From contig CP003083.1 of assembly GCA_000306725.1 (NCBI GenBank), positions 2,468,042 to 2,532,041 on the forward strand: a stretch of DNA of 64,000 nucleotides, given 5' to 3'. Origin of the DNA: Methanolobus psychrophilus R15 (GTDB lineage Archaea; Halobacteriota; Methanosarcinia; Methanosarcinales; Methanosarcinaceae). Shown one piece after another: positions 10,472 through 27,627 of the stretch (its first letter is position 1; each line of letters opens with the position of its first letter). Under the pieces are notes generated by a model that was not told the DNA's origin, did not search any database, and saw nothing but the letters and a program-made list of their open reading frames with translations. Made by a program: the position numbers and the translations under genes.

Positions 10472-10800
10472 GTGATTCTCGTTTCTTAGCTGATAAAGTA
10501 TTTTATATATCTTCCAAAGAGACTTACCAGAAAGAAGTCTTATTAATGACTATAAAAAAGGTAAATTTAAACAGTAACCCTTTGTTCAATTGTATCTTCT
10601 GACATAAATAATGCTCTAAACTTTTTGTAAAGATGCTTTTTATTAAAGTGCTTGATCAATCTTTCAGCGTAAACTCTCATGCAGTTTGATGCCGTTCCTT
10701 AGTTCTCATATTTCGCAATATTTAAATAAACTCCAGTCCCATATTACTTGGGGTAGGCAATACATTGCCTCATATTGAAAATTAAAGGGGAGTGATAACT
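10472..10800. promoter_or_regulatory. Divergent intergenic region with PRC/hemerythrin promoter
   Basis: 329 bases without a gene. A TATA box (TATTTAAATAAA) lies at 10719-10730 on the plus strand, about 70 bases upstream of the gene at 10801. It is followed by GTCCCATATTA (10736-10746) and a leader block TGCCTCATATTGAAAA ending in the GGGGAGTG ribosome site at 10787-10794. The same elements recur before the second copy (11838-11912). The rest is AT-rich with nothing else recognised. Confidence 0.55.
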
Positions 10801-11727
10801 GTGGCTGTGCCAGAGATGTTGTCAGTTAGTTCTATGGAAGGAGACAAAATCGTAAATGAAAAGGGTGAAAACCTTGGAGATATAAAAGATGTAATGATAG
10901 ACATGCAGACAGGGTCTGTTGCTTATGTCGTGCTATCTTTTGGCGGTTTCTTAGGCATGGGGAACAAGTTATTTGGCGTTCCGCTTGAGACTATGACAAA
11001 GAAACCGAATGAACATGCTTTCATTCTGAATATTGATAAAGAACGGCTTGAGAATGCTCCAGGATTTGATAAAGACCACTGGCCTGGAACCGAAGCTGGA
11101 GGGTCCTATGGGGAATACGTTACAAATGTGTACGATTATTATGGATATGAATGTCCCTACAAGGAAAATATCTACGGAGCGGGAAGAGGGGACCGGGAAT
11201 TTGAAGAACCTGGCGGAAGAACATTAATAGACCCTCTGGGAAAAGCCAAAGCAGAGAGGGTCCATGCTCGTGATACGGCAGAATGCACTGTTGCAGGCGA
11301 GCCTGGTGATATATACAGTATACTCAAGAACGAGCATGACAGGGTGCTGGGCATGTTTGATGAGGCAATCAACAGCCGTTCAAAGGACACTTTTATGCAG
11401 ATAAGGGACGAACTTAATTCTCATATGAGCGGGGAGGAAGAAGTCCTATATCCGGTACTGAGGGACAGGGAAAGAACCCATGATGTTGCTATGGAAGGCT
11501 ATCAGGAACATCATCTGGCCAAGTTGCTGCTCTCGGAGCTTGAAGTCATGGATGAGAAAAGCGACATGTGGGTACCTAAAATGAAGGTGCTGAAAGAAAC
11601 TGTCAGACATCATGTAAAAGAAGAAGAGAAGCAAATGTTCCCTGGTGCACAACGCGAGATGAGCAAAAGTGAATCTCAGGAAGTTGCACGAAAATACTTG
11701 GATTTCAAGAGCCATTACAGGGTATGA
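10801..11727 (+). CDS. PRC-barrel + hemerythrin HHE protein, copy 1
   Basis: 308 residues. The N-terminal PRC-barrel domain (about 5-80) shows GDKIVNEKGENLGDIKDVMI and AYVVLSFGGFLGMGNKLFGVP. The C-terminal half is a hemerythrin-like HHE bundle with metal-ligand candidates in NEHDRVLGMFDE, LNSHMSGEEEVLYPVL, YQEHH and VRHHVKEEEKQMFP. Such domains bind a di-iron centre and sense O2, NO or oxidative stress. The GTG at 10801 was chosen over the one at 10792 because GGGGAGTG lies six bases upstream, exactly as in copy 2. No signal or membrane segment, so cytoplasmic. The domain pairing suggests a stress- or iron-linked function, which is inference. Confidence 0.85.
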   Translation: MAVPEMLSVSSMEGDKIVNEKGENLGDIKDVMIDMQTGSVAYVVLSFGGFLGMGNKLFGVPLETMTKKPNEHAFILNIDKERLENAPGFDKDHWPGTEAGGSYGEYVTNVYDYYGYECPYKENIYGAGRGDREFEEPGGRTLIDPLGKAKAERVHARDTAECTVAGEPGDIYSILKNEHDRVLGMFDEAINSRSKDTFMQIRDELNSHMSGEEEVLYPVLRDRERTHDVAMEGYQEHHLAKLLLSELEVMDEKSDMWVPKMKVLKETVRHHVKEEEKQMFPGAQREMSKSESQEVARKYLDFKSHYRV

Positions 11728-11837
11728 TCACATACCCTTTGTTTTAGTTCATGATGTTAAGATTATTTTTTAAAGGCATGATTATAGAGATAAACTATCT
11801 TTTAGGAACAATTTCCCGGTACTATGATTCACAGTTC

Positions 11838-11912
11838 TTATATAAAGTCGGGTCCCATATTATATTGATGAGGTTAAATCAAGTGCCTCATATCGAAAAC
11901 TAAATGGGAGTG
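11838..11912 (+). promoter_or_regulatory. Promoter and leader of PRC/hemerythrin copy 2
   Basis: TATATAAAG-type TATA box (11838-11847), then GTCCCATATTA (11852-11862) and TGCCTCATATCGAAAA (from 11884), ending in the GGGAGTG ribosome site. The order and spacing match the leader of copy 1, although the sequence between the blocks has diverged; the blocks therefore look selected. Confidence 0.55.
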
Positions 11913-11918
11913 TTATGC

Positions 11919-12977
11919 GTGGCTGTACCAGAAGTACTATCTATTACTACAATTGAAGGAGATAAGGTTGTAAACGAAAAAGGTGAAGATCTTGGGAACA
12001 TAAAAGATATAATGATCAATCTGCAGGATGGATCAGTATCTTATGCTGTACTGTCATTCGGAGGGTTCTTAGGACTTGGGGATAAATACTTTGGAGTGCC
12101 CTGGAAGGCAATCCACAAGGATCCGGGCTCGCACAATTTCATATTGAATGTTGAAAAAGAAAGACTTGAGAATGCTCCCGGATTCGATAAGGATCACTGG
12201 CCAGGAACGACGGATGAAGCTCACCGTGAATACGTAACAAGCATTTACGACTATTACGGATATGAGCAGCCTATGATCAGAAGAGGCGCAGTTGATGAGG
12301 AAACAAGGTCGCGGACTCATCTTGAGGAACCTGTGGTCATGTCCGGCAATGAATACGAAGCTGAGACCAGAAGCAGCAGCGATAAGCGTGAACCAGCAAC
12401 TATGGGCGCAGAAGAAACAATGGCTGCATCACGCCAAGGAGAGATCATAGGTGCTGGCACTGCTGCCGGTACGTCTTCTGCAAGGACCACTGAAGTGAAA
12501 GAAGGTGGTATCACTCGTGAAAGCTATCCAAACACACACCGGGAGATATACCAGATACTCAAGGATGAACATGACAAAGTATTGAGCCTGTTCGATGAAG
12601 CTATCAGGAATGGCTCAAGAGATACCTTCATGCAGATAAAGGATGAACTTGACACACATCTCAACGGGGAGGAAGAACTCCTGTACCCGGTGCTTAAAAA
12701 AGAGAACAGGACTCATGATATCACCATGGAAGGCTATCAGGAACACCATGTTGCGAAAGTTCTGTTATCAGAACTGGATTCAATGAGTGAGAAAGATGAG
12801 ATGTGGACTTCCAAGCTCAAGGTTCTGAAGGAGAACGTGAAGCACCACGTAGAAGAAGAAGAGAAAGAGATGTTCCCGGCTTCCCGGAAGGTTCTTAGTG
12901 AACAGAAGGCAGGAGAGCTTGCAGAACAGTATCTTGCTTTCAAGGATAAATACAGGGCTGCTCACGGCAGAAGATAA
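11919..12977 (+). CDS. PRC-barrel + hemerythrin HHE protein, copy 2
   Basis: 352 residues, a paralogue of the gene at 10801. It has the same PRC-barrel N-terminus (GDKVVNEKGEDLGNIKDIMI) and hemerythrin C-terminus (DEHDKVLSLFDEAI, HLNGEEELLYPVL, YQEHH, VKHHVEEEEKEMFP). It differs by a longer Ser/Thr/Glu/Arg-rich linker between the domains (about residues 125-205), which looks disordered. The GTG at 11919 is preferred over the ATG at 11904 because the GGGAGTG ribosome site stands six bases before the GTG, matching copy 1. The 3' end is followed by a hairpin with T-run. Confidence 0.85.
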   Translation: MAVPEVLSITTIEGDKVVNEKGEDLGNIKDIMINLQDGSVSYAVLSFGGFLGLGDKYFGVPWKAIHKDPGSHNFILNVEKERLENAPGFDKDHWPGTTDEAHREYVTSIYDYYGYEQPMIRRGAVDEETRSRTHLEEPVVMSGNEYEAETRSSSDKREPATMGAEETMAASRQGEIIGAGTAAGTSSARTTEVKEGGITRESYPNTHREIYQILKDEHDKVLSLFDEAIRNGSRDTFMQIKDELDTHLNGEEELLYPVLKKENRTHDITMEGYQEHHVAKVLLSELDSMSEKDEMWTSKLKVLKENVKHHVEEEEKEMFPASRKVLSEQKAGELAEQYLAFKDKYRAAHGRR

Positions 12978-14817: not shown

Positions 14818-15435
14818 TTAACGGGAACTTCGCTCTTCCACGTACAAGAGGTAGAGACAACTGTTTTCTCTCATTTCCATGAACCCCTGGGTCTCGGAGA
14901 TGCCTGCCTTTTCCAGTAAGACCTTCTTCCAGGATTCAGGAGGAAGTGCAATCTCACCTGTATACGCTTTGGCGCCTATCTGGGCATATTGCAGGGGTTT
15001 GCCATCTATCTTGATTCTTTTTGCCACTTCTTTCCTGTAGGTCTGATGCATCATGCATGCGCTGTGAGCTGCTGATGGCTGTATCGTATGATTATAGTGA
15101 TCTGTGGCCTCAACATGCACAGGATTGAAGTTGCCTATACGTTTGATATACTCCCTTATCGCCTTGGAGAACGGGCATATATTGGTGACGAAACCGTATT
15201 TGCTTATCTGCTCTATGCTCTCAAAGGACGAGAATACAGATTCACCGCTGGCGACAGCTTTTGCAAAATCGTCCCAGGTCTCGTATTCTTCCTCAGGTAC
15301 GGACTTGGCAAGTGATTCAGCCTGGCCGACCATATAATTAGTAAATCCTTCCACGCCCTGTTTATCTGAGATATCCTCAAAGAACAGGAAGACGGAAACA
15401 TCAACAAAAGGATTGGATTCAATATTCTCTGCCAT
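14818..15435 (-). CDS. Uncharacterised Cys/His-motif protein, paralogue A
   Basis: 205-residue soluble protein, family not recognised. Conserved with its neighbour at 15446-16072: a cysteine in CPFSKAIREYIKRIG (about residue 87), D-x-YN, and A-H-S-A-C-M-M-H-Q, so a C...D-YN...CxxHQ pattern possibly binding a metal or cofactor. The N-terminus is less conserved and includes a FEDISDKQGVEGFTNYMVGQAE helix. The ATG at 15435 was chosen over 15453 because AGGGTGAT stands just upstream and overlaps the stop of the preceding gene. Ten bases separate it from paralogue B, so they are likely co-transcribed. The location just beyond the chemosensory cluster suggests, but does not prove, a signalling role. 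Confidence 0.7.
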   Translation of the reverse strand: MAENIESNPFVDVSVFLFFEDISDKQGVEGFTNYMVGQAESLAKSVPEEEYETWDDFAKAVASGESVFSSFESIEQISKYGFVTNICPFSKAIREYIKRIGNFNPVHVEATDHYNHTIQPSAAHSACMMHQTYRKEVAKRIKIDGKPLQYAQIGAKAYTGEIALPPESWKKVLLEKAGISETQGFMEMRENSCLYLLYVEERSSR

Positions 15436-15445
15436 ATTATCACCC

Positions 15446-16072
15446 TTAATCAACTACTTCCTCACCAGCGCTCTTTCCTTTTACTATAATGGCGAATACG
15501 CATGATGCGCTGCGAAGGATACTTTTGATGTGGCGTTCATCCACATTTATCCTTGCAAGATTCTCAGGCACCATTTTCACATCTCCTGTCATGCCTTTGT
15601 TTGCAAGCTGCAGGCATTCAAGGGCCTGTTTAGCGACTGTGATATTATTGGCCGCGATCTCCCTGAATCTCTGGTGAGTGATGCAGTAATTGGAAACCGC
15701 TGAATCCCTGATGCGATTATTGTAACTATCGGCAACGTCGGTGTCTGAATCGGGGATTGGCCCTATCCTGGAAATGTATCTCCTCATTGTAGGTGCCATG
15801 GGGCAGGTCTTCAGTGCATAAACGTATCCTATAACATCCCCGTCCTTGTCAATAATGGCAAGATCGGTAAGTACGTTAACTTCTCCTTCTACAGTGAGGG
15901 ATGTTCTTCCCTCTTTCATTGCCACGTTAAAGGCGGGCCAGCCTACATAAGCTTCTTTGCCCATCCTTTCGGCATAACTTTCACCTACACGGAGCCAGTA
16001 TTCTACAACACCCTCCGTTCCTGCTTTGCTGACCATATCATCAACAAGTGAATATATTGCAATGTCCATCAT
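15446..16072 (-). CDS. Uncharacterised Cys/His-motif protein, paralogue B
   Basis: 208-residue soluble protein homologous to the gene downstream. Shared positions are CPMAPTMRRYISRIG, D-SYNN and NYCITHQRFREIAAN, i.e. the same C...D-YN...CxxHQ pattern. The track of the frame extends 23 codons further upstream, but that part is basic, lies over the promoter TATA region and lacks a ribosome site. The ATG at 16072 follows AAGGAGAACC. A middle segment (VNVLTDLAIIDKDGDVIGYVYALK) looks like a small sensory or ligand-binding fold. Function unknown; no recognised domain. Confidence 0.68.
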   Translation of the reverse strand: MMDIAIYSLVDDMVSKAGTEGVVEYWLRVGESYAERMGKEAYVGWPAFNVAMKEGRTSLTVEGEVNVLTDLAIIDKDGDVIGYVYALKTCPMAPTMRRYISRIGPIPDSDTDVADSYNNRIRDSAVSNYCITHQRFREIAANNITVAKQALECLQLANKGMTGDVKMVPENLARINVDERHIKSILRSASCVFAIIVKGKSAGEEVVD

Positions 16073-16117
16073 GGCTATGGTTCTCCTTATTCGTCTCTCA
16101 CCATTCAATCTAAATAT

Positions 16118-16136
16118 ACTATATTTATATATTAAT
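16118..16136 (-). promoter_or_regulatory. Candidate TATA box for the paralogue pair
   Basis: Very AT-rich minus-strand run AATATATAAATATAGTA about 50 bases upstream of the ATG at 16072. It suggests that the pair has its own promoter as well as possible read-through from the che genes. No other elements are clear. Confidence 0.4.
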
Positions 16137-16193
16137 TGCACTGATTGTTTTTATTCTTTACCATTGAATTATGTATATTATATTAAAATCGCA

Positions 16194-16792: not shown

Positions 16793-17416
16793 TCAGGATA
16801 GCATTTTTCCGATAGATTCCCTTAGCTTATCCAGAGAAGCCGGGTCAAGCAGGAGAAACATGTCTCCATAGATGGTATTCAATCCCTTCCCGTCACCGGC
16901 GTCATGAATCATGAACATCGTTTCAACATTCAGCAACTCGTCAGGTTCATTCTCTATCAGTGAAGAAGCTCTTTTAAGAACATTCAGTATCGCTCCTATG
17001 ACTATCTCCGGGGTGCTATGGCGCACTGCCATATCAAGGAAAGATGTAAGAGCCCCTATATAGGAGCCTGCAAGGATATTTCCCAGTTCGGCAAGTGCAG
17101 ACTCATGCATTGTAGGATCATTGGCCTGTTCAGATTCGCCAAGCATAAGGCTGCTCAGGAGTACAGCATTGTTAAATTCGAATAGAAGCAGGGCAACACC
17201 TCTGAGTTCTCCTTCGATCTTTAACATGACCCCCGCCATAGTGATAGATTCGGGAATCAGCATAGAGACCTTTTCCTGCTGCAGCATTCCCACGTCTGAA
17301 AGGTTTAGCCTTACATTACGGCTTACGAGTTTTGAAAGGGAGGTTGTTGCATTTCCCATTCCTATGCTTCCGATCTCTTTGAGCGCGTCAGTCTCGAAAC
17401 TGTTCAATATATCCAT
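16793..17416 (-). CDS. cheC: CheC-type CheY-P phosphatase (fourth cheC)
   Basis: 207-residue CheC/CheX/FliY-family protein. CheC removes phosphate from CheY-P and is stimulated by CheD. Each of its two pseudo-symmetric halves has an E-x-x-N active site. Here the first site reads E14-I-G-S17 (Asn replaced by Ser) and the second E110-L-G-N113 (intact), so only the second half should be catalytic. The rest matches the family, including NILAGSYIGALTSFLDM. It is separated by 17 bases from the Cys-rich membrane protein gene upstream. Gene symbol denotes family; there are four such genes in this cluster. Confidence 0.88.
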   Translation of the reverse strand: MDILNSFETDALKEIGSIGMGNATTSLSKLVSRNVRLNLSDVGMLQQEKVSMLIPESITMAGVMLKIEGELRGVALLLFEFNNAVLLSSLMLGESEQANDPTMHESALAELGNILAGSYIGALTSFLDMAVRHSTPEIVIGAILNVLKRASSLIENEPDELLNVETMFMIHDAGDGKGLNTIYGDMFLLLDPASLDKLRESIGKMLS

Positions 17417-17433
17417 ACTATACCTTACTACCT

Positions 17434-18666
17434 TTATTCAGGCTCAATGACTAATTTTTCATTCTCTTCATTTTGTTCCATGTAGAACTTCTCTCCTACG
17501 TAGAAGCGAACATATTCCTCCCTGCCGCCCTTTACGATACGTATTCTGGAATGCATGATATCTGCAAGATTGAGGAAAAGCCCTTCAAATCTGGAAACAA
17601 TTTTTTCGTCATGTGCTGGTTTATTGAGGAGGCCTATAAGGGTGATCTCACTGGCGCTGAACCTTTCGACCATTTTTGATACGAACTCATAGATCTCCTT
17701 TTCTCCCTCACTGATTATAAGATGTGTAAGGGGCTCAAATATTATGGCGCAATCTTTGGGCAATTTGCTTGTGAGGTCGAAGAACTTATCAAGCTCTGTA
17801 ACCGGTAATTTAATTATTCCATTGTCTTCCGAGACCGTTTTTATAGTGGGTGAGATCTCGATGAACTTCATAGCACCGACATCCATGAGGTCGGCCAGCT
17901 TTTCCCTATAAAGATTTGTTCTTGGCTGGGTGGACACAAGTACTGTGTTCACAGTCTCTCCATACAACCTGAGGCATATTTCGATAACTGCATCCTCATA
18001 TCTCATATGAGGGGCATATTCAAGCAAAGTGGACCGTTTGAACAGATTTGCAGTCTGTTCGAACTCTGCAAAAACACCTGCCCTGTCATTCATGGGGCAT
18101 TTATCGATCTCTTTTTCATACCTGATGCATGTGTCGAGTACATCACAGTCCATGCATGATGTCATGCCTTTGTCAACAACGCACTCATATATCAGGCATT
18201 TTTCTTCTGCATGCTTGTTCTTAGAAATGCATCCCGGACACTTCTCACTCTCATACATCTCACAAAGGGAACATTTCTTTGCACATGCGGATTTCACGAC
18301 CTGGTTCTTCTGGAAAACCATTCCTTCTAGAAGGAAATCCCCAAGTTTCTCCCGGGGAATAGTCCTGAAAGCAGTGAACATCATAAAGCCTGCTGCTGCA
18401 AATATGCTGGTATATACCGCACTCCAGAAACCCAGATAGATAAGAATGGTTTCAGAAACTGTAGGGTCGGGTATACTGACTGCCACAGAAGGGAATATGG
18501 ATGTGGTTATGAGGAATATAGCTGTGAGTGCAAGAAGCAGCCATGCGATGGACCCTTTCTTAGTCTCATAATATACCCTGACCCAGAAGTAAATAGCTGC
18601 TATCCCTGCTGAAAGTGAGATAGAGATGAATAGTATATATACCAATGTGATATCCGGGGTTAACAT
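17434..18666 (-). CDS. Membrane protein with Cys cluster and DUF835-like domain
   Basis: 410 residues in three parts. N-terminal: three hydrophobic helices (about 6-28, 40-62, 74-98). Middle (about 126-195): a dense cysteine region with CAKKCSLCEMYESEKCPGC, CLIYEC, CMDCDVLDTC and a final CPM, resembling DUF3795-type clusters and probably binding zinc or Fe-S. C-terminal (about 215-400): an alpha/beta domain with NTVLVSTQPRTN, DCAIIFEPLTHLI and ASEITLIGLLN, like the DUF835/RecA-like sensor domains of archaeal signalling proteins. Set between cheD and cheC, it is a reasonable candidate for a membrane receptor or scaffold of this chemosensory system; that role is inference. It lacks HAMP and methyl-accepting domains. 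Confidence 0.75.
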   Translation of the reverse strand: MLTPDITLVYILFISISLSAGIAAIYFWVRVYYETKKGSIAWLLLALTAIFLITTSIFPSVAVSIPDPTVSETILIYLGFWSAVYTSIFAAAGFMMFTAFRTIPREKLGDFLLEGMVFQKNQVVKSACAKKCSLCEMYESEKCPGCISKNKHAEEKCLIYECVVDKGMTSCMDCDVLDTCIRYEKEIDKCPMNDRAGVFAEFEQTANLFKRSTLLEYAPHMRYEDAVIEICLRLYGETVNTVLVSTQPRTNLYREKLADLMDVGAMKFIEISPTIKTVSEDNGIIKLPVTELDKFFDLTSKLPKDCAIIFEPLTHLIISEGEKEIYEFVSKMVERFSASEITLIGLLNKPAHDEKIVSRFEGLFLNLADIMHSRIRIVKGGREEYVRFYVGEKFYMEQNEENEKLVIEPE

Positions 18667-18720
18667 TTTGCCGCCACCTTAATTCCTCATCAGATGCTGA
18701 TATGTATTTATATTTAATTG

Positions 18721-19194
18721 TTAATATATTTTTTGCCCTTTTAGAGCACTTTTCACTATAAGCTCGCCATTATCTGTATCCAGGATTATCGTACGTCCAT
18801 AGTTCTCGCCTGTATCTTCTGCGATCAGCGGGATCCTTAGTTTCTTCAGGATTTCCTTGGTTGCAGTGACATTCCTCTCCCCAATATTGAGCTGGGTGTT
18901 TGAGCTGAAGGAAAACATTCTAGCTCCTCCTGCTATTTTTGCTTTGATGGCGTTCTTTGCGGCGCCTTCCTTTACCATACATTCTACAAGATAGGGTATA
19001 CCTGTATCAGCAAACTTTGCAAGATTATCCTTTGCTCTTGCATTTTCTACACTCGGAAGCATTATATGCACCATTCCGCCGACACAGCTGCTTTTATCGA
19101 ACATGGCAACACCTACGCACGACCCCAGTCCAAGGGTCGTTATTTTAGCAGGTTTTTTTGCTACCGCGCTGTCTGCCATTCCTACGATTATCAT
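18721..19194 (-). CDS. cheD: CheD receptor deamidase / CheC partner
   Basis: 157-residue CheD. The enzyme deamidates glutamines of chemoreceptors and binds CheC, raising its phosphatase activity. The expected catalytic residues are in place: T20 (ITTLGLGSC), C26 (GSCVGV) and H43 (GGMVHIMLPS). The IAGGARMFSF and IGERNVTATKEIL segments are also family-typical. It sits five bases after a cheC gene, matching the known functional pairing. The presence of CheD implies that classical receptors exist elsewhere in the genome. Confidence 0.95.
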   Translation of the reverse strand: MIIVGMADSAVAKKPAKITTLGLGSCVGVAMFDKSSCVGGMVHIMLPSVENARAKDNLAKFADTGIPYLVECMVKEGAAKNAIKAKIAGGARMFSFSSNTQLNIGERNVTATKEILKKLRIPLIAEDTGENYGRTIILDTDNGELIVKSALKGQKIY

Positions 19195-19199
19195 AATAT

Positions 19200-19811
19200 T
19201 CAGGTACGCATTTTGTTGATCCTGTCAAGGATGTTCCTCATGGAGGCTGCATCCAGCAGCATGTACATGTCACCGCTCAGGCTATGGTACTCATCTTCAG
19301 CTTCTATCTCAAACAGGGCGGTCAGCCCAATGATATGATCTACTTTTCCGTTCAGGTATTTTCCGCACTTCTTCAATAGGTCCTCAGGGATGCCTTCTGC
19401 CAGTACGGGCAATGAAGGTGTTACTGACATGTCAAGGAACTTTGAAAGAGCAGTACAGTAGGTGCCTGCCAGGATATTTGCCACTTCTATGACAACTGAA
19501 CTCCTCATGTAAGGGTCATTTTCGTATTCTGTGCGTGCAAGCATCATCTCTGATAGTACTTCTGAATGTCTTTTATTCAGCATGAGTATGAAACCGCCGT
19601 TCAGGTCACCTATTACCTTGACTATGGCTCCTGTCTTGCTATGTTCCTCATGATCTGAAATACTGTCAGGGTCAAGAGATGTGAGTTCAGAGGCGCTGAC
19701 CTTGATCGTTTTTCCAATGAGTTGAGAAAGGGCTGTTGTGGCGTTTCCCATACCAATGTTCCCTATCTCATTAAGCGCGTCATAATAGAACTGGTCAAGT
19801 ATAATTTTCAT
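19200..19811 (-). CDS. cheC: CheC-type CheY-P phosphatase (third cheC, both sites intact)
   Basis: 203 residues. It is the only one of the four cheC genes here in which both E-x-x-N active sites survive: E15-I-G-N18 in DALNEIGNIGMGNATTALS, and E109-V-A-N112 in EVANILAGTYCTALSKFLDM. It lies directly before cheD (five bases), so it is the most probable classical CheC that forms the CheC-CheD complex. Ribosome site AAGGAGG precedes the ATG by a short AT stretch. Confidence 0.92.
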   Translation of the reverse strand: MKIILDQFYYDALNEIGNIGMGNATTALSQLIGKTIKVSASELTSLDPDSISDHEEHSKTGAIVKVIGDLNGGFILMLNKRHSEVLSEMMLARTEYENDPYMRSSVVIEVANILAGTYCTALSKFLDMSVTPSLPVLAEGIPEDLLKKCGKYLNGKVDHIIGLTALFEIEAEDEYHSLSGDMYMLLDAASMRNILDRINKMRT

Positions 19812-19827
19812 ATTCTACCTCCTTCAG

Positions 19828-20442
19828 TTATACCATATCGTTAATTCTTGTAAGGATCCTGTCCATCGATTCAGGATCGAACAACGTGAGCAGGATACCT
19901 TCCATCCTGTTTCCTTCCATTGTGAAGAATGTATCAAAGAGAAATGTGTACTCCACGTTCCTACTCATTTCAATGAGTATCTGGTCCATGATGGCGCCAA
20001 GCATGTCATAGGTCTGCATTGGAGGCGAGATCCTGAAGTTCAGTCCCAGGAATTCAGAGAGTGAGCTTACGTAGGAACCTGCCAGGATATGTCCCACTTC
20101 CTCTATGAGGGATTGGTTCATGGAGCTCAGGATATCCGGAGCTTCTTCTCCGGTAATCGTGGTGCATATCGTTTCGGCGGTGTCCCTGGATAGCAACATC
20201 ATGATGTAGCCGTTAATGTCTCCGTCCAAATGCATAATTACTCCTGAGACCACCGTATCAGCGCCGCCGGCACTCTCAGGTACGTCCTCTATCTTCTCTA
20301 TCTTCAGTTCAGGAACTTCTATGCTGATCTGCTTGCCTATCATCTTTGAAAGAGAGGTCACAGCATTGCCCACGCCTATATTGACTATTTCCTTCAAAGC
20401 ACTGGCCTGCAGCTCAGTCAGTTCATCCATCCTGCCTATCAT
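19828..20442 (-). CDS. cheC: CheC-type CheY-P phosphatase (second cheC)
   Basis: 204-residue CheC-family protein. First site intact: E18-I-V-N21 in ALKEIVNIGVGNAVTSLS. Second site changed: E115-V-G-H118 in EEVGHILAGSYVSSLSEFL, with histidine in place of asparagine. It may act as a one-site phosphatase or a binding partner. It is 16 bases upstream of the next cheC and 51 bases downstream of cheR. A second Met (residue 5) is a possible start. Confidence 0.88.
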   Translation of the reverse strand: MIGRMDELTELQASALKEIVNIGVGNAVTSLSKMIGKQISIEVPELKIEKIEDVPESAGGADTVVSGVIMHLDGDINGYIMMLLSRDTAETICTTITGEEAPDILSSMNQSLIEEVGHILAGSYVSSLSEFLGLNFRISPPMQTYDMLGAIMDQILIEMSRNVEYTFLFDTFFTMEGNRMEGILLTLFDPESMDRILTRINDMV

Positions 20443-20493: not shown

Positions 20494-21330
20494 TCATTTA
20501 CAGTATATTCTTTCTTTTGCGTTGAACGGCTTGAAGCGGTCTTTGGAGGGTCCAAGGAGTGTTTCCGTTTTTCCCATGACAAAGAACCCATTCTCATTCA
20601 GTCCATCGTAAAAGTCCATGTACAGTTTTTCCTGCAGTTCTTTTTCAAAATAAATAGTGACATTCCTGCAGAATATAATGTCAAATCCCTTGATCTTTGG
20701 GCCTGATATCATGTCATGGGACTTGAAGTGCGTCATCTTTTTCAGGCTGTCTATTACATGGTACTGGTTTCCCTGCTGTACAAAATACTTTTTCAGGAAA
20801 GCGGGTCCCACATCTTTCATTTCAATGTCGCTGTAGATTCCTTGCTGGGCCTGCTGAAGGCTCGCCTTGTCTATGTCGGTGCCTGTTATCGATATATTGT
20901 ATCTTTTGATATTAGCTCCCAGAATATGGTCCAGAAGCATTGCAATGGAGTATGCTTCCACTCCTATGGAGCAACCGGCACTCCATATCTTTATGGATTT
21001 GAGAGGACTGCTGCCTTTAGACTTGATCACGGCAGGGAGTACTTCTTTTTCCACGATGTCATATACCTCTGTGTTGCGGAAAAAGTTTGTGACATTGACA
21101 GTCAGCGTATCCATGAGTATAACACGCTCACCATCATTCTCTTTCAGGAGCTTTACATAATCCCCATAATTCTTCGAGCCAGAAGCTCTCAGTCTCACAT
21201 CGATTCTCCTTTTAAAATGGGAATCCTTATAGTACTCACAGTTAAACCCGAGTTTGTCTTTGATCACGTTCTTGAGCATTGCAAAATCTGCATCTTCTTT
21301 CGTAACAATTTTCTCAGCAGTCTTAAGCAT
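20494..21330 (-). CDS. cheR: CheR chemoreceptor methyltransferase
   Basis: 278-residue SAM-dependent methyltransferase that methylates glutamates of chemoreceptors for adaptation. The N-terminal helical domain contains the basic face FKRRIDVRLRASGSKNYGDY; the SAM-binding domain shows NVTNFFRNTEVYD, IWSAGCSIGVEAYSIAMLL and a late FDIIFCRNVTIYFEKELQ. Length and motif order are standard. The ATG follows the stop of the FtsA-like gene with no spacer, so translation is probably coupled. Confidence 0.95.
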   Translation of the reverse strand: MLKTAEKIVTKEDADFAMLKNVIKDKLGFNCEYYKDSHFKRRIDVRLRASGSKNYGDYVKLLKENDGERVILMDTLTVNVTNFFRNTEVYDIVEKEVLPAVIKSKGSSPLKSIKIWSAGCSIGVEAYSIAMLLDHILGANIKRYNISITGTDIDKASLQQAQQGIYSDIEMKDVGPAFLKKYFVQQGNQYHVIDSLKKMTHFKSHDMISGPKIKGFDIIFCRNVTIYFEKELQEKLYMDFYDGLNENGFFVMGKTETLLGPSKDRFKPFNAKERIYCK

Positions 21331-23448
21331 TTAAACCTCCTGGAATTCTATGCTAACTTTGTTTCCGTCTCTCAATGGTGTTGTAAAACGGGCGGGGGTA
21401 CCGTTAACAAAGAGCTTGATGCTTTTTCCTACAAGCTCTTCTCTGTTTATGTCCATGAACTCAAAAAGATCTGAAAGGATAGGGTTCTCATAAGCCCCTT
21501 CTTTTACTGTGATATCATCGCCGTCAAACACTCTTTCAGAAAGTTCTGCCTTCTTTCCATTAACAATTATAGAACTATCGTGACCGTTGAATGTCACTTT
21601 TTCACCATTGAGTATCACACTGGTACTTTTCCGGTTCTCAGGCACCTCAACAATATCATCAACGGTCCAGACGGCCTCACATTTTTCTATCTGCACCTTA
21701 TCCCCGTTCTTGATGATCATGCTGGGAAGATCAACAGGGTCTACCACATTCCCGTTCAGCATGACTGATAATTTTATTCTGTCAAGGAGCTTCGGCTTCC
21801 TGTTCACCGTGACCTGCATCTTGTCAGTGACATCGGCACATGCCACCTGAATCACTTCTTTCAGTGTGAAGGGTTCGATAATGACTTCTGACCTGTCGGG
21901 AACATTATCCTCAGGTGAAACTATTTTTCTATTTACAATAACCGGGGTCATCAGTCTGGTTACTATATCATTGACAGTAATATCTGTAAAAGCGTTCATC
22001 CCCATTTTGGATATAAGCTCCCTGACCGTTATGCTTGCATCCCTGCCATCAGAAGGCGGTTCAAACTCTATTCTGGAACCTTTGTGAACCGGGTCCCCTA
22101 GGTTTGCTCTTTTTCCATCCAGCAGGACGCTGGCATGCTTCCCGGCATCGCCTTCAATAGTTATGAACTGAGAGTTCACTTTGAGTGTAAGGGCAAGTCC
22201 GGGGCGCGGATAAAGTCGTTTTATGTGTGTGGCCACAAGAGCGTCCATCACCGACAGGCCATTAAGTGCCATTAGATGAACGGTTGTGTTATTGACTGTC
22301 AGGTCTGTGAATTCGATGCCCGTCTTGCGGATAGCTGTCAGAGCTATGCCAAGAGGTGTTATCATATCGGCGCCAGTGACTTTGCCAGTAGTGTCCCTTA
22401 ATGTATCTATCATCGCAGGAAGGCGTGCTCCTATTCGCTGCACAGGAACTCCCAGGTGCACTGAAAGCCGTTCTTTGAGCGTAACTGTCTGTGACCCTCC
22501 TCCGACAAGGACGACTGCACGTGGGAACTTTCCATTTATTGCGAGTATCTCGTTTGCTATGTGCAGGGCAAGTTTGTCCACCTCATCGCCAATAACAGAG
22601 ATCACCTCTGCAGCCTGTATCCTGGTGACATTGCCAAAAAAGTCCTTTATCTCTATAATATCACATGCGCAGATCGTTTGCTTTATCTCTTCGCCCTTTT
22701 TAAAATCGACCAGGTAATGGTCACAAATGAAATCCGTTATCTCGTCCCCTGCTTCTGCAACCATGCCATAGCCTATGACCGTTCCGTCATTGGTTACAGC
22801 GATATCTGATGTGCCCGCCCCTATATCCACAAGTGCTATGTTCAGTTTGCGCATATCCAGAGGGATGGCAACACTCAGTGCAGCTATGGGTTCCAGAGTG
22901 ATGCTTGAAACTTCCATGTCGCATCTGGCAAGCACAGCAAACATGCTATTAATGACAGGCTCCGGCAGAAATGTTGCAAGGACCTCTATTGAAATTGAGC
23001 TTCCACAGTGTCCTGTTATGTTCGAGATCCTCTGTCCGTCAAGCTCATACCCGATAACTGAATAACCTACACAGTTAAACCGTTCGCCAGCGTCAATTTC
23101 AGTGCTGGCTCTTGCCACGGCTTCAAACTCGATCTCTGATACATCATTCTCAGTGATCTCCCTGTAAGGCAGGTCAATAGACAGTTTTGCTTTAGATGTT
23201 CTAAGGGCCCTGCCGGCAACTGCCACACAGGCCCGTGTGAGTTTATACCCGATCTCTTTTTCAAGCTCGGCTTTTACTTTCTTTACGACCTCTGCAACCT
23301 TTTCCACATCGTGGATCTGTCCGTCATGCATACTGCGCTCTTCATGTTCACATATGCATGCGGCTTTTACTTCCAGAGGCTCTCCTTCAACAATGAGCCC
23401 CACAACAGTCCTGGTACCTATATCCAGGGCAAAGTGGGAATTGTTCAT
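21331..23448 (-). CDS. FtsA/PilM-like actin-fold ATPase with repeat tail
   Basis: 705-residue protein. Residues 1-375 have the FtsA layout: phosphate-1 motif F6-ALDIGTRTVVGLI, an inserted SHS2-like subdomain (about 70-195, VGYSVIGYELDG), phosphate-2 motif LVDIGAGTSDIAV (206-218) and adenosine motif AVVLVGGGSQTVTLKERL (311-328). Residues 380-705 are an extension holding about five copies of a strand-NG-turn-L-GD-strand unit (about 439-463, 502-525, 561-588, 626-650, 677-703), like beta-grasp/ThiS folds. There is no C-terminal amphipathic membrane anchor as in bacterial FtsA. It is one base from cheC and directly abuts cheR, so it is a real member of the che operon. FtsA is rare in archaea; a cytoskeletal or polar-scaffold role is inferred. 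Long FtsA relatives of this kind are known from clostridia-like bacteria, so transfer is possible. Confidence 0.85.
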   Translation of the reverse strand: MNNSHFALDIGTRTVVGLIVEGEPLEVKAACICEHEERSMHDGQIHDVEKVAEVVKKVKAELEKEIGYKLTRACVAVAGRALRTSKAKLSIDLPYREITENDVSEIEFEAVARASTEIDAGERFNCVGYSVIGYELDGQRISNITGHCGSSISIEVLATFLPEPVINSMFAVLARCDMEVSSITLEPIAALSVAIPLDMRKLNIALVDIGAGTSDIAVTNDGTVIGYGMVAEAGDEITDFICDHYLVDFKKGEEIKQTICACDIIEIKDFFGNVTRIQAAEVISVIGDEVDKLALHIANEILAINGKFPRAVVLVGGGSQTVTLKERLSVHLGVPVQRIGARLPAMIDTLRDTTGKVTGADMITPLGIALTAIRKTGIEFTDLTVNNTTVHLMALNGLSVMDALVATHIKRLYPRPGLALTLKVNSQFITIEGDAGKHASVLLDGKRANLGDPVHKGSRIEFEPPSDGRDASITVRELISKMGMNAFTDITVNDIVTRLMTPVIVNRKIVSPEDNVPDRSEVIIEPFTLKEVIQVACADVTDKMQVTVNRKPKLLDRIKLSVMLNGNVVDPVDLPSMIIKNGDKVQIEKCEAVWTVDDIVEVPENRKSTSVILNGEKVTFNGHDSSIIVNGKKAELSERVFDGDDITVKEGAYENPILSDLFEFMDINREELVGKSIKLFVNGTPARFTTPLRDGNKVSIEFQEV

Positions 23449-23449
23449 C

Positions 23450-24064
23450 TCATCCCATCATCTTTTTCATGATTGCAGCCATTATAACGTCGCTTGCCTC
23501 AGGTTCGAACAGCATGTTGAACTCGTTCCTTGAGTTTGTGGACGGTATATAGCATTCTCCTTTAACGACTATGAACTCGTCAGCAAGCTGTCCAATCTCC
23601 TTCTTGATGAAATCAGTCACTCCTTCCATATTCACATCCATGCGGGGGTCTCCGATGGCAAGGTTGATCCCGAGGAACTCATTGACCACACGCATGTATG
23701 AGCTACAGAGCCGTACTCCCATTTCACGAAGTTTGCGAATTTCCATCTCTTCTATCTTTGTGGTCGTCCCTATAGATTTCTTTAAAAGGAGGTCGGAGAA
23801 TGAAAGTGCTGAGAACTTTGGTAAAAGGATCAGAGTTCCACCGGTCACATCTCCTGAAATACTGAGGTGAATACCTACAACGCTCTTCTGCTTTCCATTG
23901 GAGGCCCTGGAGATGATCTCATCCAGTGATAGCATCTCTACAACAGGGATGTCTATCTTTACCTCTCTGCTGACCATTTTGGAGAGAGCGGTTGCCAGAT
24001 GACCCATTCCGATATTCCCTGCTTCCTGGAATGCTCCTTTTGTCATTTCGTCCATTTCAGTCAT
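23450..24064 (-). CDS. cheC: CheC-type protein (first cheC, one degenerate site)
   Basis: 204 residues. First site intact: E14-A-G-N17 in AFQEAGNIGMGHLATALSKM. The second helix has lost the motif (E114-M-G-V117, in LREMGVRLCSSYMRVV). It may have become partly structural, as in FliY or CheX relatives. The gene lies between cheA (17 bases) and the FtsA-like gene (one base), so it could be the adaptor linking the actin-like protein to CheY-P; this is inference from order. Confidence 0.85.
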   Translation of the reverse strand: MTEMDEMTKGAFQEAGNIGMGHLATALSKMVSREVKIDIPVVEMLSLDEIISRASNGKQKSVVGIHLSISGDVTGGTLILLPKFSALSFSDLLLKKSIGTTTKIEEMEIRKLREMGVRLCSSYMRVVNEFLGINLAIGDPRMDVNMEGVTDFIKKEIGQLADEFIVVKGECYIPSTNSRNEFNMLFEPEASDVIMAAIMKKMMG

Positions 24065-24081
24065 TTTATACCCTCATCATA

Positions 24082-26115
24082 TCATATCAAAGTTGCAATA
24101 TCAAGGATCAGTGCAACGCTTCCATCTCCAAGGATGGTAGCACCTGCAAATCCCCTTGTGTTCTTCAAAAGTTTATTGTCAAGAGTCTTGATGATTACTT
24201 CCTGCTGTCCCAGAAGCTGATCAACAACAAATCCAATATTGCTGCCCATTCTTTCCACAACGACCACTATAAGGTTCTCTTTCTTTTCAGCCTCTCCCGG
24301 GCAGTCAAGGACATCGCGCAGCCTCAGCAGCGGCAGTACCTCTCCACGCAGCAGGATGACCTCTTTTCCTTCAATTGTCTTGATATCCCTGGCCTTTATG
24401 CCCACGTCCCTCACAACATTTGCAAGAGGTATTGCATACGTTTCTCCTGCAATAGTCACCATCAGGGACTGGATGATCGCAACAGTCAGGGGCAGTTGCA
24501 GTTTGATGGAGCTTCCCTGGCCCGGCACCGAGCTGACCTTTACGGTGCCTCCAAGTGCTTCTATCTTAGTTTTGACCGCATCCATGCCGACTCCCCTGCC
24601 TGAGACATCGGTGATGGTCTTCGCACCGCTGAAGCCAGCCACGAATATAAGGTTAAGTGCATCCGTGTCAGAGAGCTTATCCACTTCTTCGCGGCTCATT
24701 ATTCCCTTTTTAACCGCAATGTCTCTCAAGTGCGCAGGATCCATGCCTTTTCCGTCATCCTGCACCTCTATGATTACACTGTTCCTCTGCCTTGAAGCGG
24801 AAAGACCGACAAAACCCGCGACAGGTTTGCCGAGTTTTATGCGTTCTTCAGTAGGTTCGATGCCATGGTCTACGGCATTGCGCAAAAGGTGGACAAGCGG
24901 GTCTCCTATCTCGTCAAGCACAGTTCTGTCAAGTTCTATCTCCTTCCCTTCGATGACAAGGTCCACTTGTTTACCTTCTGATTTTGCAAGATCCCTTATC
25001 ATTCGCGGGAATCTGCTGAACACCTGGTCGATAGGCACCATCCTGGCTTCCATGACCTCGTTCTGTATCTCGTTGGTCAGGCGGTCCAGGTTAGCAAGAG
25101 ATTCATCAAGACTTTTGGCATTGATATCGGAAGCAAGCTGGTTCAGTCTGATCTTGTTGATGATCAGTTCACCCACAAGATTCATGAGATTGTCAAGGCG
25201 CTCAATGTTGACCCTGACGCTCTGGATGCTTTTTACAGATTCTGATCTCTTGACACCTGAACTACATTGCTGTGGCTCGTTTGCGTCTTCTTTTGTCGTG
25301 GATTCGGTTTCGTCATTTTCACACGCATACAAAACTGAGATATCAATAGCCTTGATCTCCGATATCTTTTTAATTACTTCCGTAATTCTGGCATCATCCT
25401 CTTTTGTGGCAAAGACGACAGAAAACTCAAAGCCGAACTTCTCATCCTCCAGATCTGCTTCGGATGGCATGCACTTAATGATCTTTCCCATCTTTGACAG
25501 GTTTATGAGTACAAGCGTGGACCTTGCTGACTTCAGTACACAGGATGGATCAAGCATGACTTTTAATTCAAGTATCCTGTTCCCTTCATGAAGTGCAGTC
25601 TCAATGTTTGCATTTTCAGATTCAGACAACTGAATGTGCATTTCTGTTTCATGAGCAGGCTTTAATTTTTCCTGAGTATGTATTGAGACTGTTCCTGCAA
25701 GGTCGTTTGCAATGTTGCCTGTGGTTCCAACAGCACAAAGAGCACCTTCCATGGCTTGCGTAAGGGAGGCCTGCAGATGGGATATGTTAACCTCACCCCC
25801 GGTGTCCACGCTCTCGACAAGGGCTTCAAGTGTATCCAGGCACTCAAAAAGTATATCGATAAGGGAGTCACTGACAGCCACCTGGCATTTGCGTAGCATG
25901 TCCATCAGATTTTCCATCTCATGGGTCAGTTCCGCGATGGTGCTGAATCCCATGGTAGCTGACATTCCTTTGAGGGTATGTGCAGAGCGGAACATCGTGT
26001 TGATATATTCGATCTCCATGGGGTTCTGTTCAAGCCCGAGCAGAGACTCATTCAACTGTTGGAGATGTTCTTCAGACTCTGCTTTGAAAATATCTTTATA
26101 TTCTGACATATCCAT
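24082..26115 (-). CDS. cheA: CheA sensor histidine kinase
   Basis: 677-residue CheA. Domains in order: P1/HPT with phospho-acceptor H46 in FRSAHTLKGMSATMGF; a P2-like CheY/CheB-binding region (about 180-270); P3 dimerisation (about 295-360, LDNLMNLVGELIINKIRL); P4 ATPase with HLLRNAVDHGIEP, DDGKGMDP and GRGVGMDAVKTKIEALGG; and P5, the CheW-like coupling domain to the end. It phosphorylates CheY and CheB in response to receptor state. No cheW gene is nearby, so the coupling protein must be encoded elsewhere. It is separated from cheB by 61 bases. Confidence 0.96.
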   Translation of the reverse strand: MDMSEYKDIFKAESEEHLQQLNESLLGLEQNPMEIEYINTMFRSAHTLKGMSATMGFSTIAELTHEMENLMDMLRKCQVAVSDSLIDILFECLDTLEALVESVDTGGEVNISHLQASLTQAMEGALCAVGTTGNIANDLAGTVSIHTQEKLKPAHETEMHIQLSESENANIETALHEGNRILELKVMLDPSCVLKSARSTLVLINLSKMGKIIKCMPSEADLEDEKFGFEFSVVFATKEDDARITEVIKKISEIKAIDISVLYACENDETESTTKEDANEPQQCSSGVKRSESVKSIQSVRVNIERLDNLMNLVGELIINKIRLNQLASDINAKSLDESLANLDRLTNEIQNEVMEARMVPIDQVFSRFPRMIRDLAKSEGKQVDLVIEGKEIELDRTVLDEIGDPLVHLLRNAVDHGIEPTEERIKLGKPVAGFVGLSASRQRNSVIIEVQDDGKGMDPAHLRDIAVKKGIMSREEVDKLSDTDALNLIFVAGFSGAKTITDVSGRGVGMDAVKTKIEALGGTVKVSSVPGQGSSIKLQLPLTVAIIQSLMVTIAGETYAIPLANVVRDVGIKARDIKTIEGKEVILLRGEVLPLLRLRDVLDCPGEAEKKENLIVVVVERMGSNIGFVVDQLLGQQEVIIKTLDNKLLKNTRGFAGATILGDGSVALILDIATLI

Positions 26116-26176: not shown

Positions 26177-27271
26177 TTATCTTAGCATATGGACTATCTC
26201 GCTTGATACTCTTTCAAGGCTCACTGTACTATCTGACAGCCCGCGCTGGACAACCACTTTTGGCATACCATAGACCACACAGGACTTCTCATCCTCTGTT
26301 ATCACCTTGCCGCCGGCTTTCTTTATCTCTTCGGCCCCATCCGCCCCGTCTGCCCCCATTCCGGTGAGCACTACAGCAAGTATGTTTTGCCCGTAGAGCG
26401 GAACCAGGGATTTGAAAAGGATGTTCGCACATGGCCTGACACCCTGCTCACGCGGATTCTGGTTAAGGGAAACAACTTCTGATGTACGCCCGCTTATGCT
26501 CTTCTGTACTATCTCCATGTGGTAGTTTCCCGGAGCAATGTATACAACGCCTGGTTCCAGCACGTCTCCATCCTTAGCCTCACATACAGTAAGTTTTGAC
26601 TGCATGTCCAGCCTTTGTGCCAGGGATGCTGTAAAACCTGCTGGCATGTGCTGTACAACGACAACTGGTACCTTCAGGTCTCCAGGCAGTTTTGGAACTA
26701 CCTGCTCAAGTGCCCGAGGTCCCCCGGTAGAGGAAGCTATCGCAAGTATCTTCTGGTTTGAAAAGTGTTTTTTCCTTGAGTCTTCAGGGGGCTTTGCAGG
26801 TATACTTAGCTCTTTCTTTGCATGGGTTCCTCTGGAATTCACATGTTCTTCCATAAAGCCTAGCTTTTTAAGGTCCACTTTAGATGCAATTTTGACTTTT
26901 AAACGGATGTCATCAGCTATATCCATTATATTCAGGCTGATATTGCCGGAAGGTTTCTGGATAAAGTCTACAGCTCCATATTCAAAAGCGTTCAATGTTC
27001 TTTCGGCAGACTTTGGATCGATGGCCGTGAGCATTACCACTGGAGTCGGACACTCACTCATGATGTATCCGAGTGCATGCAGTCCGTCAAGTGTTGGCAT
27101 CTCAACGTCAAGAGTGACCACATCAGGCCTGAGCTTCTCAACTTTTTCCACAGCGTCGAGGCCGTTCCTTGCTGTTCCTATCACTCTGATCTCCTGATCT
27201 TCTGAAAGGATGTCAGAGATAACTTTACGCATCAGTGCCGAATCATCGACTACAAGGACATTGATCGTCAT
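26177..27271 (-). CDS. cheB: CheB methylesterase/deamidase response regulator
   Basis: 364 residues. N-terminal receiver domain with phospho-site D55 (TLDVEMP) and a C-terminal methylesterase with the catalytic triad around S181 (IASSTGGPRALE), H208 (VVVQHMPAGFT) and the aspartate in TGMGADGADG. It removes methyl groups from receptors opposite to CheR and is activated by CheA. Its ATG shares a base with the cheY stop (TAATG on the minus strand). Confidence 0.96.
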   Translation of the reverse strand: MTINVLVVDDSALMRKVISDILSEDQEIRVIGTARNGLDAVEKVEKLRPDVVTLDVEMPTLDGLHALGYIMSECPTPVVMLTAIDPKSAERTLNAFEYGAVDFIQKPSGNISLNIMDIADDIRLKVKIASKVDLKKLGFMEEHVNSRGTHAKKELSIPAKPPEDSRKKHFSNQKILAIASSTGGPRALEQVVPKLPGDLKVPVVVVQHMPAGFTASLAQRLDMQSKLTVCEAKDGDVLEPGVVYIAPGNYHMEIVQKSISGRTSEVVSLNQNPREQGVRPCANILFKSLVPLYGQNILAVVLTGMGADGADGAEEIKKAGGKVITEDEKSCVVYGMPKVVVQRGLSDSTVSLERVSSEIVHMLR

Positions 27272-27627
27272 TACATTACTTTTCCGATAACTTCCAGGAC
27301 CTTTGCGGCATCAAACGGCTTCACTATGAAATCAAGGGCTCCGCTTTTGAGAGCATCAGTAACTACTGACTGCTGCCCAATGGATGAGCACATGATCACT
27401 CTTGCAGAAGGGTCCATTTGCATTATTTTCTTTAATGCATCGGTCCCTTCCATATTTGGCATAACGATGTCCATGAACACCAGGTCCGGTTTGAACTGGG
27501 GATATTTCTGGACAGCATCAAGTCCGTCAACACATTCAGCCACGACCTCATGACCATTCTTTTTCAGAATATCCTTGATGACCATGCGCATAAATGCGGC
27601 GTCGTCCACAATCATTACTTTTGCCAT
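27271..27627 (-). CDS. cheY: CheY response regulator
   Basis: 118-residue single receiver domain. Phospho-acceptor D53 (LVFMDIVMPNMEG), acidic pair D8-D9, switch residues in IMCSSIG and lysine in FIVKPF are present. It is the first gene of the cluster and is expressed from the upstream AT-rich region. CheY-P is the diffusible output that CheC proteins dephosphorylate; in archaea it reaches the archaellum through CheF, which is not in this window. Confidence 0.96.
   Translation of the reverse strand: MAKVMIVDDAAFMRMVIKDILKKNGHEVVAECVDGLDAVQKYPQFKPDLVFMDIVMPNMEGTDALKKIMQMDPSARVIMCSSIGQQSVVTDALKSGALDFIVKPFDAAKVLEVIGKVM

Follow-up and report, generated by a model that had tools for sequence, protein, structure and literature searches.

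A long FtsA-like ATPase with five ubiquitin-like units in the che operon of Methanolobus and its possible chemosensory role

FtsA is rare in archaea: a homologue has been reported only for Methanopyri and was ascribed to acquisition from bacteria (Pende et al. 2021, PMC8178401). In the window analysed here, 64,000 nucleotides of the closed 3.07 Mb genome of Methanolobus psychrophilus R15, a preliminary description based on sequence read the single-copy gene at 21331-23448 as an archaeal FtsA with five beta-grasp repeats, and its remark on rarity agrees with the published record. The Methanopyri homologue, set beside our protein by its description, belongs to another archaeal lineage (PMC8178401). 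We therefore asked what this 705-residue product, here named FtsAL, is and what it may do. Its nearest relatives are Methanolobus proteins, and a dN/dS of 0.155 indicates purifying selection, ruling out a decaying gene for the window copy.

Architecture of FtsAL

The gene and the elements of its ATPase core are as follows.

21331-23448, minus strand: whole FtsAL gene, an open reading frame of 705 codons for an FtsA-like ATPase with a beta-grasp array; full-length homologues exist
22324-23448, minus strand: actin-fold ATPase core of FtsA type, residues 1-375 (profile TIGR01174, Foldseek)
23386-23433, minus strand: phosphate 1 motif, residues 6-21; archaea and Bacillota share an invariant LDIGTR...G
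22963-23202, minus strand: inserted 1C/SHS2-like subdomain, residues ~83-162
22768-22839, minus strand: phosphate 2 motif, residues 204-227; D208, G210, G212, T213 and D215 invariant
22483-22518, minus strand: adenosine motif AVVLVGGGSQTV, residues 311-322; G316 and G317 invariant, G318 nearly so

The AlphaFold2 model of the full-length protein (mean pLDDT 84.8, pTM 0.65, input of 20 sequences) was compared with the PDB by Foldseek. E. coli FtsA was the first match (E 2.8e-26), followed by PilM, EutJ and MreB, and DnaK was also found. The NCBIfam ftsA profile (TIGR01174) aligned with residues 7-353 (E 1.5e-28, 99.9 bits). The amino-terminal half is thus a complete FtsA-fold core rather than a region lacking the actin fold. 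Both phosphate motifs and the adenosine motif, already recognised in the preliminary description, were recovered as LDIGTR.V.G (residues 8-17), ALVDIGAGTSDIAVT (residues 205-219) and the adenosine-side GGG (residues 316-318), and their residues are invariant or nearly so in the alignment from Methanolobus to Bacillota. The SHS2-like insertion was likewise seen in the model as a strand-helix-strand segment, which the FtsA profile alignment covers.

FtsAL shares with FtsA (PDB 7q6d, 1e4f) the core fold, the three nucleotide motifs and the 1C/SHS2-type insertion. Unlike FtsA, it scores below the TIGR01174 equivalog cut-off (175.85 bits), stands apart in the tree, lies in a che context and carries no C-terminal amphipathic helix, a 330-residue beta-grasp array taking its place. 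The absence of an amphipathic membrane anchor had been noticed before and holds in the model, which terminates in a strand (697-704); nor was any transmembrane-like stretch seen in the protein (top 19-residue Kyte-Doolittle mean 1.56). A division factor of FtsA type, anchoring or aligning FtsZ as a second FtsA in Bacillota and as an imported helper in Methanolobus, would account for the top fold match and for a profile spanning the whole core, but not for the sub-threshold score or the missing helix.

PilM, the platform ATPase of type IV pili (PDB 2ych, 5eou), is the second fold family and has the same ATPase fold. The Pfam PilM_2 score of FtsAL (31.8) just passes the gathering cut-off of 27, as would suit a PilM-like inner-membrane platform that serves a type IV filament, either pilus or archaellum, or a link from Che to the filament. 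In contrast, the NCBIfam pilM profile gave 51.6 bits where 133 are needed, and FtsAL, unlike PilM, has an additional C-terminal array and no nearby pilus genes. Weak matches to the EutJ and diol dehydratase reactivase (DDR) profiles of Pfam and NCBIfam, together with EutJ and DnaK in the Foldseek list, bring in a third possibility, a chaperone- or reactivase-like ATPase related to EutJ, diol dehydratase reactivase or DnaK and serving an unrelated pathway.

The C-terminal part was modelled alone (AlphaFold2, residues 376-705, pLDDT 84.9) and divided as follows, the percentages being hhalign probabilities against the other units.

21334-22323, minus strand: five beta-grasp/ubiquitin-like units, residues 376-705 (model of the C-terminus alone, Foldseek)
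22267-22317, minus strand: first beta1-beta2 hairpin, residues 378-394, start of the array (DSSP of models)
22045-22263, minus strand: repeat U1, residues 396-468 (93.4-98.1%)
21868-22047, minus strand: repeat U2, residues 468-527 (94.3-98.2%)
21670-21876, minus strand: repeat U3, residues 525-593 (92.7-98.4%)
21493-21675, minus strand: repeat U4, residues 592-652 (91.5-98.4%)
21334-21495, minus strand: repeat U5, residues 652-705, with helix, beta3 and beta5 but no hairpin of its own (91.5-94.3%)

All ten unit pairs reached hhalign probabilities of 91.5-98.4%, whereas none of 25 control pairs exceeded 0.24%. Sequence comparison thus firmly supports mutual homology of the five units, and chance repeats or a sequence artefact were ruled out. 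The repeats proposed earlier around residues 439, 502, 561, 626 and 677 coincide with predicted strand pairs at 440-463, 503-524, 558-591, 626-649 and 675-704, respectively. By DSSP of the models, the array contains five hairpins (378-394, 420-431, 487-500, 543-556, 609-620), five helices (400-406, 475-481, 529-536, 596-599, 658-664) and five beta3-beta5 pairs, in the order hairpin, helix, four times hairpin, beta3-beta5 and helix, then a last beta3-beta5. In these models the units seem to form an interleaved chain, each unit receiving the beta1-beta2 hairpin of the following unit between its own helix and beta3; interleaving, as opposed to circular permutation, was judged from secondary structure and Foldseek alignment lengths. 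Single-domain matches to Mth1743, SAMP1 and SUMO extended over 96-111 alignment columns although these targets are 70-89 residues long, in agreement with interleaving, since an excess of columns is expected if an extra hairpin sits inside a unit.

Foldseek matches of the array alone were mostly tandem or single ubiquitin-like proteins. The top PDB matches were E. coli and Citrobacter multi-ubiquitin proteins and the USP7 HUBL, followed by talin FERM, ISG15, ThiS and SAMP1; E-values were modest (best 4.2e-5), with a minority of unrelated chains lower down. The Pfam ThiS profile matched above its cut-off (E 1.4e-7), its positions 24-69 aligning to residues 658-700 in U5. The array accordingly combines a beta-hairpin, a helix and further strands with ThiS-like profile and fold matches, as beta-grasp domains do, and a single repeat-free domain was not seen. 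The tandem ubiquitin-like fold is shared with bacterial multi-ubiquitin proteins (PDB 9cd2, 9d5a), and the fold of the individual units with ThiS, MoaD and SAMP1. FtsAL differs from these proteins by its fusion to an ATPase, by the apparent interleaving and by its end: the C-terminal diglycine is absent (NKVSIEFQEV), and we saw no sign of a conjugation function of the array. We regard it as practically certain that FtsAL consists of an FtsA-type ATPase core joined to five ubiquitin-like units.

The che operon and the archaeal history of the gene

The preliminary description overlooked the surroundings of FtsAL, which is the fifth gene of an eleven-gene operon (cheY-cheB-cheA-cheC1-FtsAL-cheR-cheC2-cheC3-cheD-membrane protein-cheC4).

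27271-27627, minus strand: cheY (Pfam Response_reg, 3e-29)
26177-27271, minus strand: cheB (Pfam CheB_methylest, Response_reg)
24082-26115, minus strand: cheA (Pfam Hpt, P2, H-kinase_dim, HATPase_c, CheW)
23450-24064, minus strand: cheC1, directly upstream of FtsAL with a 1-nt gap (Pfam CheC 1.8e-6; NCBIfam CheC 9.4e-27, below cut-off)
21335-21341, minus strand: AGGAGGT, a Shine-Dalgarno-like, putative cheR site in the last FtsAL codons (from the junction sequence)
20494-21330, minus strand: cheR, directly downstream of FtsAL (Pfam CheR 2.3e-52)
19828-20442, minus strand: cheC2 (Pfam)
19200-19811, minus strand: cheC3 (Pfam)
18721-19194, minus strand: cheD (Pfam)
17434-18666, minus strand: membrane protein (weak DUF3795 match, below cut-off)
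16793-17416, minus strand: cheC4 (Pfam)

At the junction the cheR ATG abuts the FtsAL TAA stop, and the two genes are now probably translated jointly. The order of the remaining operon (16793-20442, minus strand) is kept across Methanolobus.

Some further features of the region were noted. The membrane protein at 17434-18666 resembles a sensor or adaptor. The four CheC paralogues differ by eye in their ExxN phosphatase signatures: cheC1 keeps only the first and cheC3 both, while N is replaced by H in the second signature of cheC2 and by S in the first of cheC4, and a division of labour among them is possible. After the operon, two adjacent proteins (14818-16141) without Pfam or NCBIfam match are 82-99% conserved, above most che proteins, and occur downstream of the operon in all Methanosarcinaceae loci reaching that far except one (L087). 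Beyond them, a protein with PRC-barrel and hemerythrin domains (11904-12977) has a neighbour similar by eye (10792-11727), which suggests a tandem duplication (10792-12977).

FtsAL sits between cheC1 and cheR in each of the 14 archaeal loci examined first, all of which have long flanks, and likewise in the sister genus G038 (L081). The gene was detected in 26 of 120 relatives, 25 of them Methanolobus and one of the sister genus, absence from incomplete genomes being uncertain; among 295 genomes across the host phylum it was seen in Methanolobus only, the sister genus giving no match row in that draw. In three other Methanosarcinaceae genera (L082-L086) the che operon lacks FtsAL and runs directly from cheC1 to cheR; where FtsAL is absent, cheC1 is the ancestral neighbour of cheR. 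The cheC1-cheR gaps in the junctions read measure about 29-100 bases. Within Methanolobus, one genome (G021) lacks the gene and has a 79-base gap (L079:6327-6405), marking either natural gene loss or an ancestral site still unoccupied. In another (G018, L080:6768-7418) an in-frame internal deletion removed most of the protein; the remaining 216 residues keep both ends and the cheR junction, the signature MHDGQ is changed to MHGGQ, and the deletion could be real or an artefact of the metagenome assembly. The empty sites indicate that FtsAL entered or left the operon without disrupting it, and the relatives without FtsAL together with the deletion indicate that the operon is older than FtsAL and the gene dispensable.

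Methanolobus CheR shares 58-68% identity with the CheR of close relatives but only 32-36% with FtsAL-linked Bacillota CheR. Accordingly, CheR is native and the archaeal FtsAL is paired with a different cheR from that of Bacillota; co-transfer of the che operon with FtsAL was ruled out on these identities and on the relatives that have the operon alone.

This setting also bears on the rival functions. The location among che genes argues against a division factor, as does SepF, the archaeal FtsZ anchor (PMC8178401), which is kept in the host and its relatives equally with or without FtsAL. Nine archaellin-family genes in the host would give a PilM-like platform a filament to serve, but pilus or archaellum genes are not adjacent in the archaeal loci read and archaellin-bearing Methanosarcinaceae often lack FtsAL.

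The Bacillota family and its link with CheR

Full-length homologues (E <= 1e-30) were found in 167 of 299 sampled Bacillota genomes, drawn from the phylum of a Tissierellia genome. They are mostly ~590-860 residues long with a C-terminal part of variable length. The long examples compared (L015, L017, L019, L095, L130) have the same two-part architecture and a similar length as archaeal FtsAL, ~31-40% identity, a MHDGQIHD-type signature and sometimes an adjacent cheR; they differ in usually lying outside che operons. One copy, in Cerasibacillus terrae (L022:8001-9192), is frameshifted into two reading frames.

In quick maximum-likelihood trees with SH-aLRT support, one of them of 82 rows, a single clade of archaeal sequences (SH-aLRT 100) lay among those of Bacillota, with canonical FtsA rows well separated on long branches (SH-aLRT 96-100). 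The root is weakly placed, and the direction of transfer is therefore read largely from the distribution of the gene, patchy in archaea and wide in Bacillota. These patterns are consistent with acquisition of archaeal FtsAL in one transfer from bacteria, most likely from Bacillota. Strict membership in FtsA was ruled out by the equivalog cut-off, the missing anchor and the tree. The identity as an archaeal FtsA, proposed in the preliminary description, did not stand, since the protein falls below the NCBIfam cut-offs of both FtsA and PilM, separates from canonical FtsA and belongs to a large Bacillota family; what it said of core, repeats, missing anchor and rarity did. In addition, Bacillus-type carriers possess a separate canonical FtsA. 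Taken with the archaeal evidence, this leaves the division factor an improbable explanation.

CheR was present in 247 of the 299 genomes, in 163 of 167 with FtsAL and 84 of 132 without (odds ratio 23, p 2.5e-15), these genomes being phylogenetically non-independent and joint absence from reduced genomes probably inflating the association. As controls in the same set, FliG gave an odds ratio of 11.8 and Spo0A one of 4.0. Within Spo0A-positive genomes the CheR-FtsAL association persisted (odds ratio 13.8, p 8e-9), and sporulation was set aside as driver of the distribution because its association is weaker. FliG occurs in 160 of the 167 carriers, and the seven without it all have CheR. The mostly flagellated Bacillota carriers also count against the PilM-like platform, which we consider hardly probable.

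FtsAL and cheR are no more than 20 kb apart in at least 22 pairs; in at least 19 genomes the distance is 2.2 kb or less, with cheR upstream and both genes on the same strand. Among 45 Bacillota loci picked regardless of cheR, seven had it close, upstream and on the same strand and none had it otherwise arranged, where chance would give ~0.4 cheR in the 0.7 Mb read (at ~1.5 copies per 2.7 Mb); most Bacillota FtsAL genes therefore have no adjacent cheR. The linked genes are spread over some five sub-clades, all within a broad clade of weak support in the 82-row tree, and a single ancient linkage with later losses is thus possible. Besides cheR, no widely conserved Bacillota neighbour was found, other neighbours being lineage clusters such as the ccpA/murC region in Bacilli and haem genes in some loci; judged from recurrent clusters, no pilus cluster was recognised in the 45 loci.

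The haem-biosynthesis genes at several Bacillota loci would fit the reactivase-like ATPase, for which the cheR neighbourhood would be historical. However, these genes are limited to a subset of the cheR-linked loci, whereas cheR itself turns up in several sub-clades and in archaea as well, and the CheR co-occurrence is strong; we hold this explanation to be quite unlikely. A stronger competitor is a general motility accessory with no direct tie to CheR, for which co-occurrence would reflect motile genomes and the archaeal site a chance insertion. The FliG association is strong too, and with ~11 operon genes, landing beside a given che gene is not very unlikely. Against it, orphan cheR rather than flagellar genes recurs beside Bacillota FtsAL, the close pairs always being upstream on the same strand, and Che is the denominator common to archaea and Bacillota. 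We judge the motility accessory doubtful, though less so than the other three rivals.

A possible chemosensory function

Archaea have an archaellum instead of the bacterial flagellum, and the denominator common to the two groups of carriers is hence the Che system. As this system is shared by flagellated Bacillota and the archaellated methanogen, with CheR as the common neighbour, we favour a chemosensory scaffold or adaptor. On the genomic evidence a chemosensory role of FtsAL is fairly likely; the fuller statement, a chemosensory-associated actin-fold ATPase and not a division FtsA, has in our view about an even chance, and the scaffold or CheR-tether mechanism is put forward tentatively. 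FtsAL would have been gained by a methanogen of the Methanolobus lineage and put into an existing che operon. Its ATPase core may switch states with ATP, perhaps as dimers or short filaments, and the beta-grasp array may act as a binding arm holding CheR, possibly also the receptor array or CheC, so that the enzymes of receptor methylation and adaptation would be brought together or positioned at the receptor array. The preliminary description had likewise suggested that the repeats may bind partners or self-associate. In Haloferax, chemosensory arrays and the motility machinery are spatially organised (PMC6509185), which by analogy makes a positioning role for FtsAL plausible. We found no study of this family, or of an FtsA-like protein linked to CheR, in the open-access literature, subscription papers lying outside the scope.

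More speculatively, and rather unlikely as a whole, FtsAL may represent a new class, an actin-family cytoskeletal ATPase for chemosensory arrays in Bacillota and one methanogen lineage, whose interleaved ubiquitin-like chain recruits CheR and gives ATP-dependent spatial control of receptor adaptation. FtsAL brings the archaeal cases of an FtsA-fold protein to two, here in a signalling operon and not with division genes, and the interleaved beta-grasp chain, if confirmed, would be an unusual protein architecture. As proteins of this type occur in over half of the sampled Bacillota, a function open to testing would be assigned to a widespread FtsA lookalike. Should it act on CheR or on the receptor array, this actin-fold ATPase with ubiquitin-like arms would represent a new layer of chemotaxis control.
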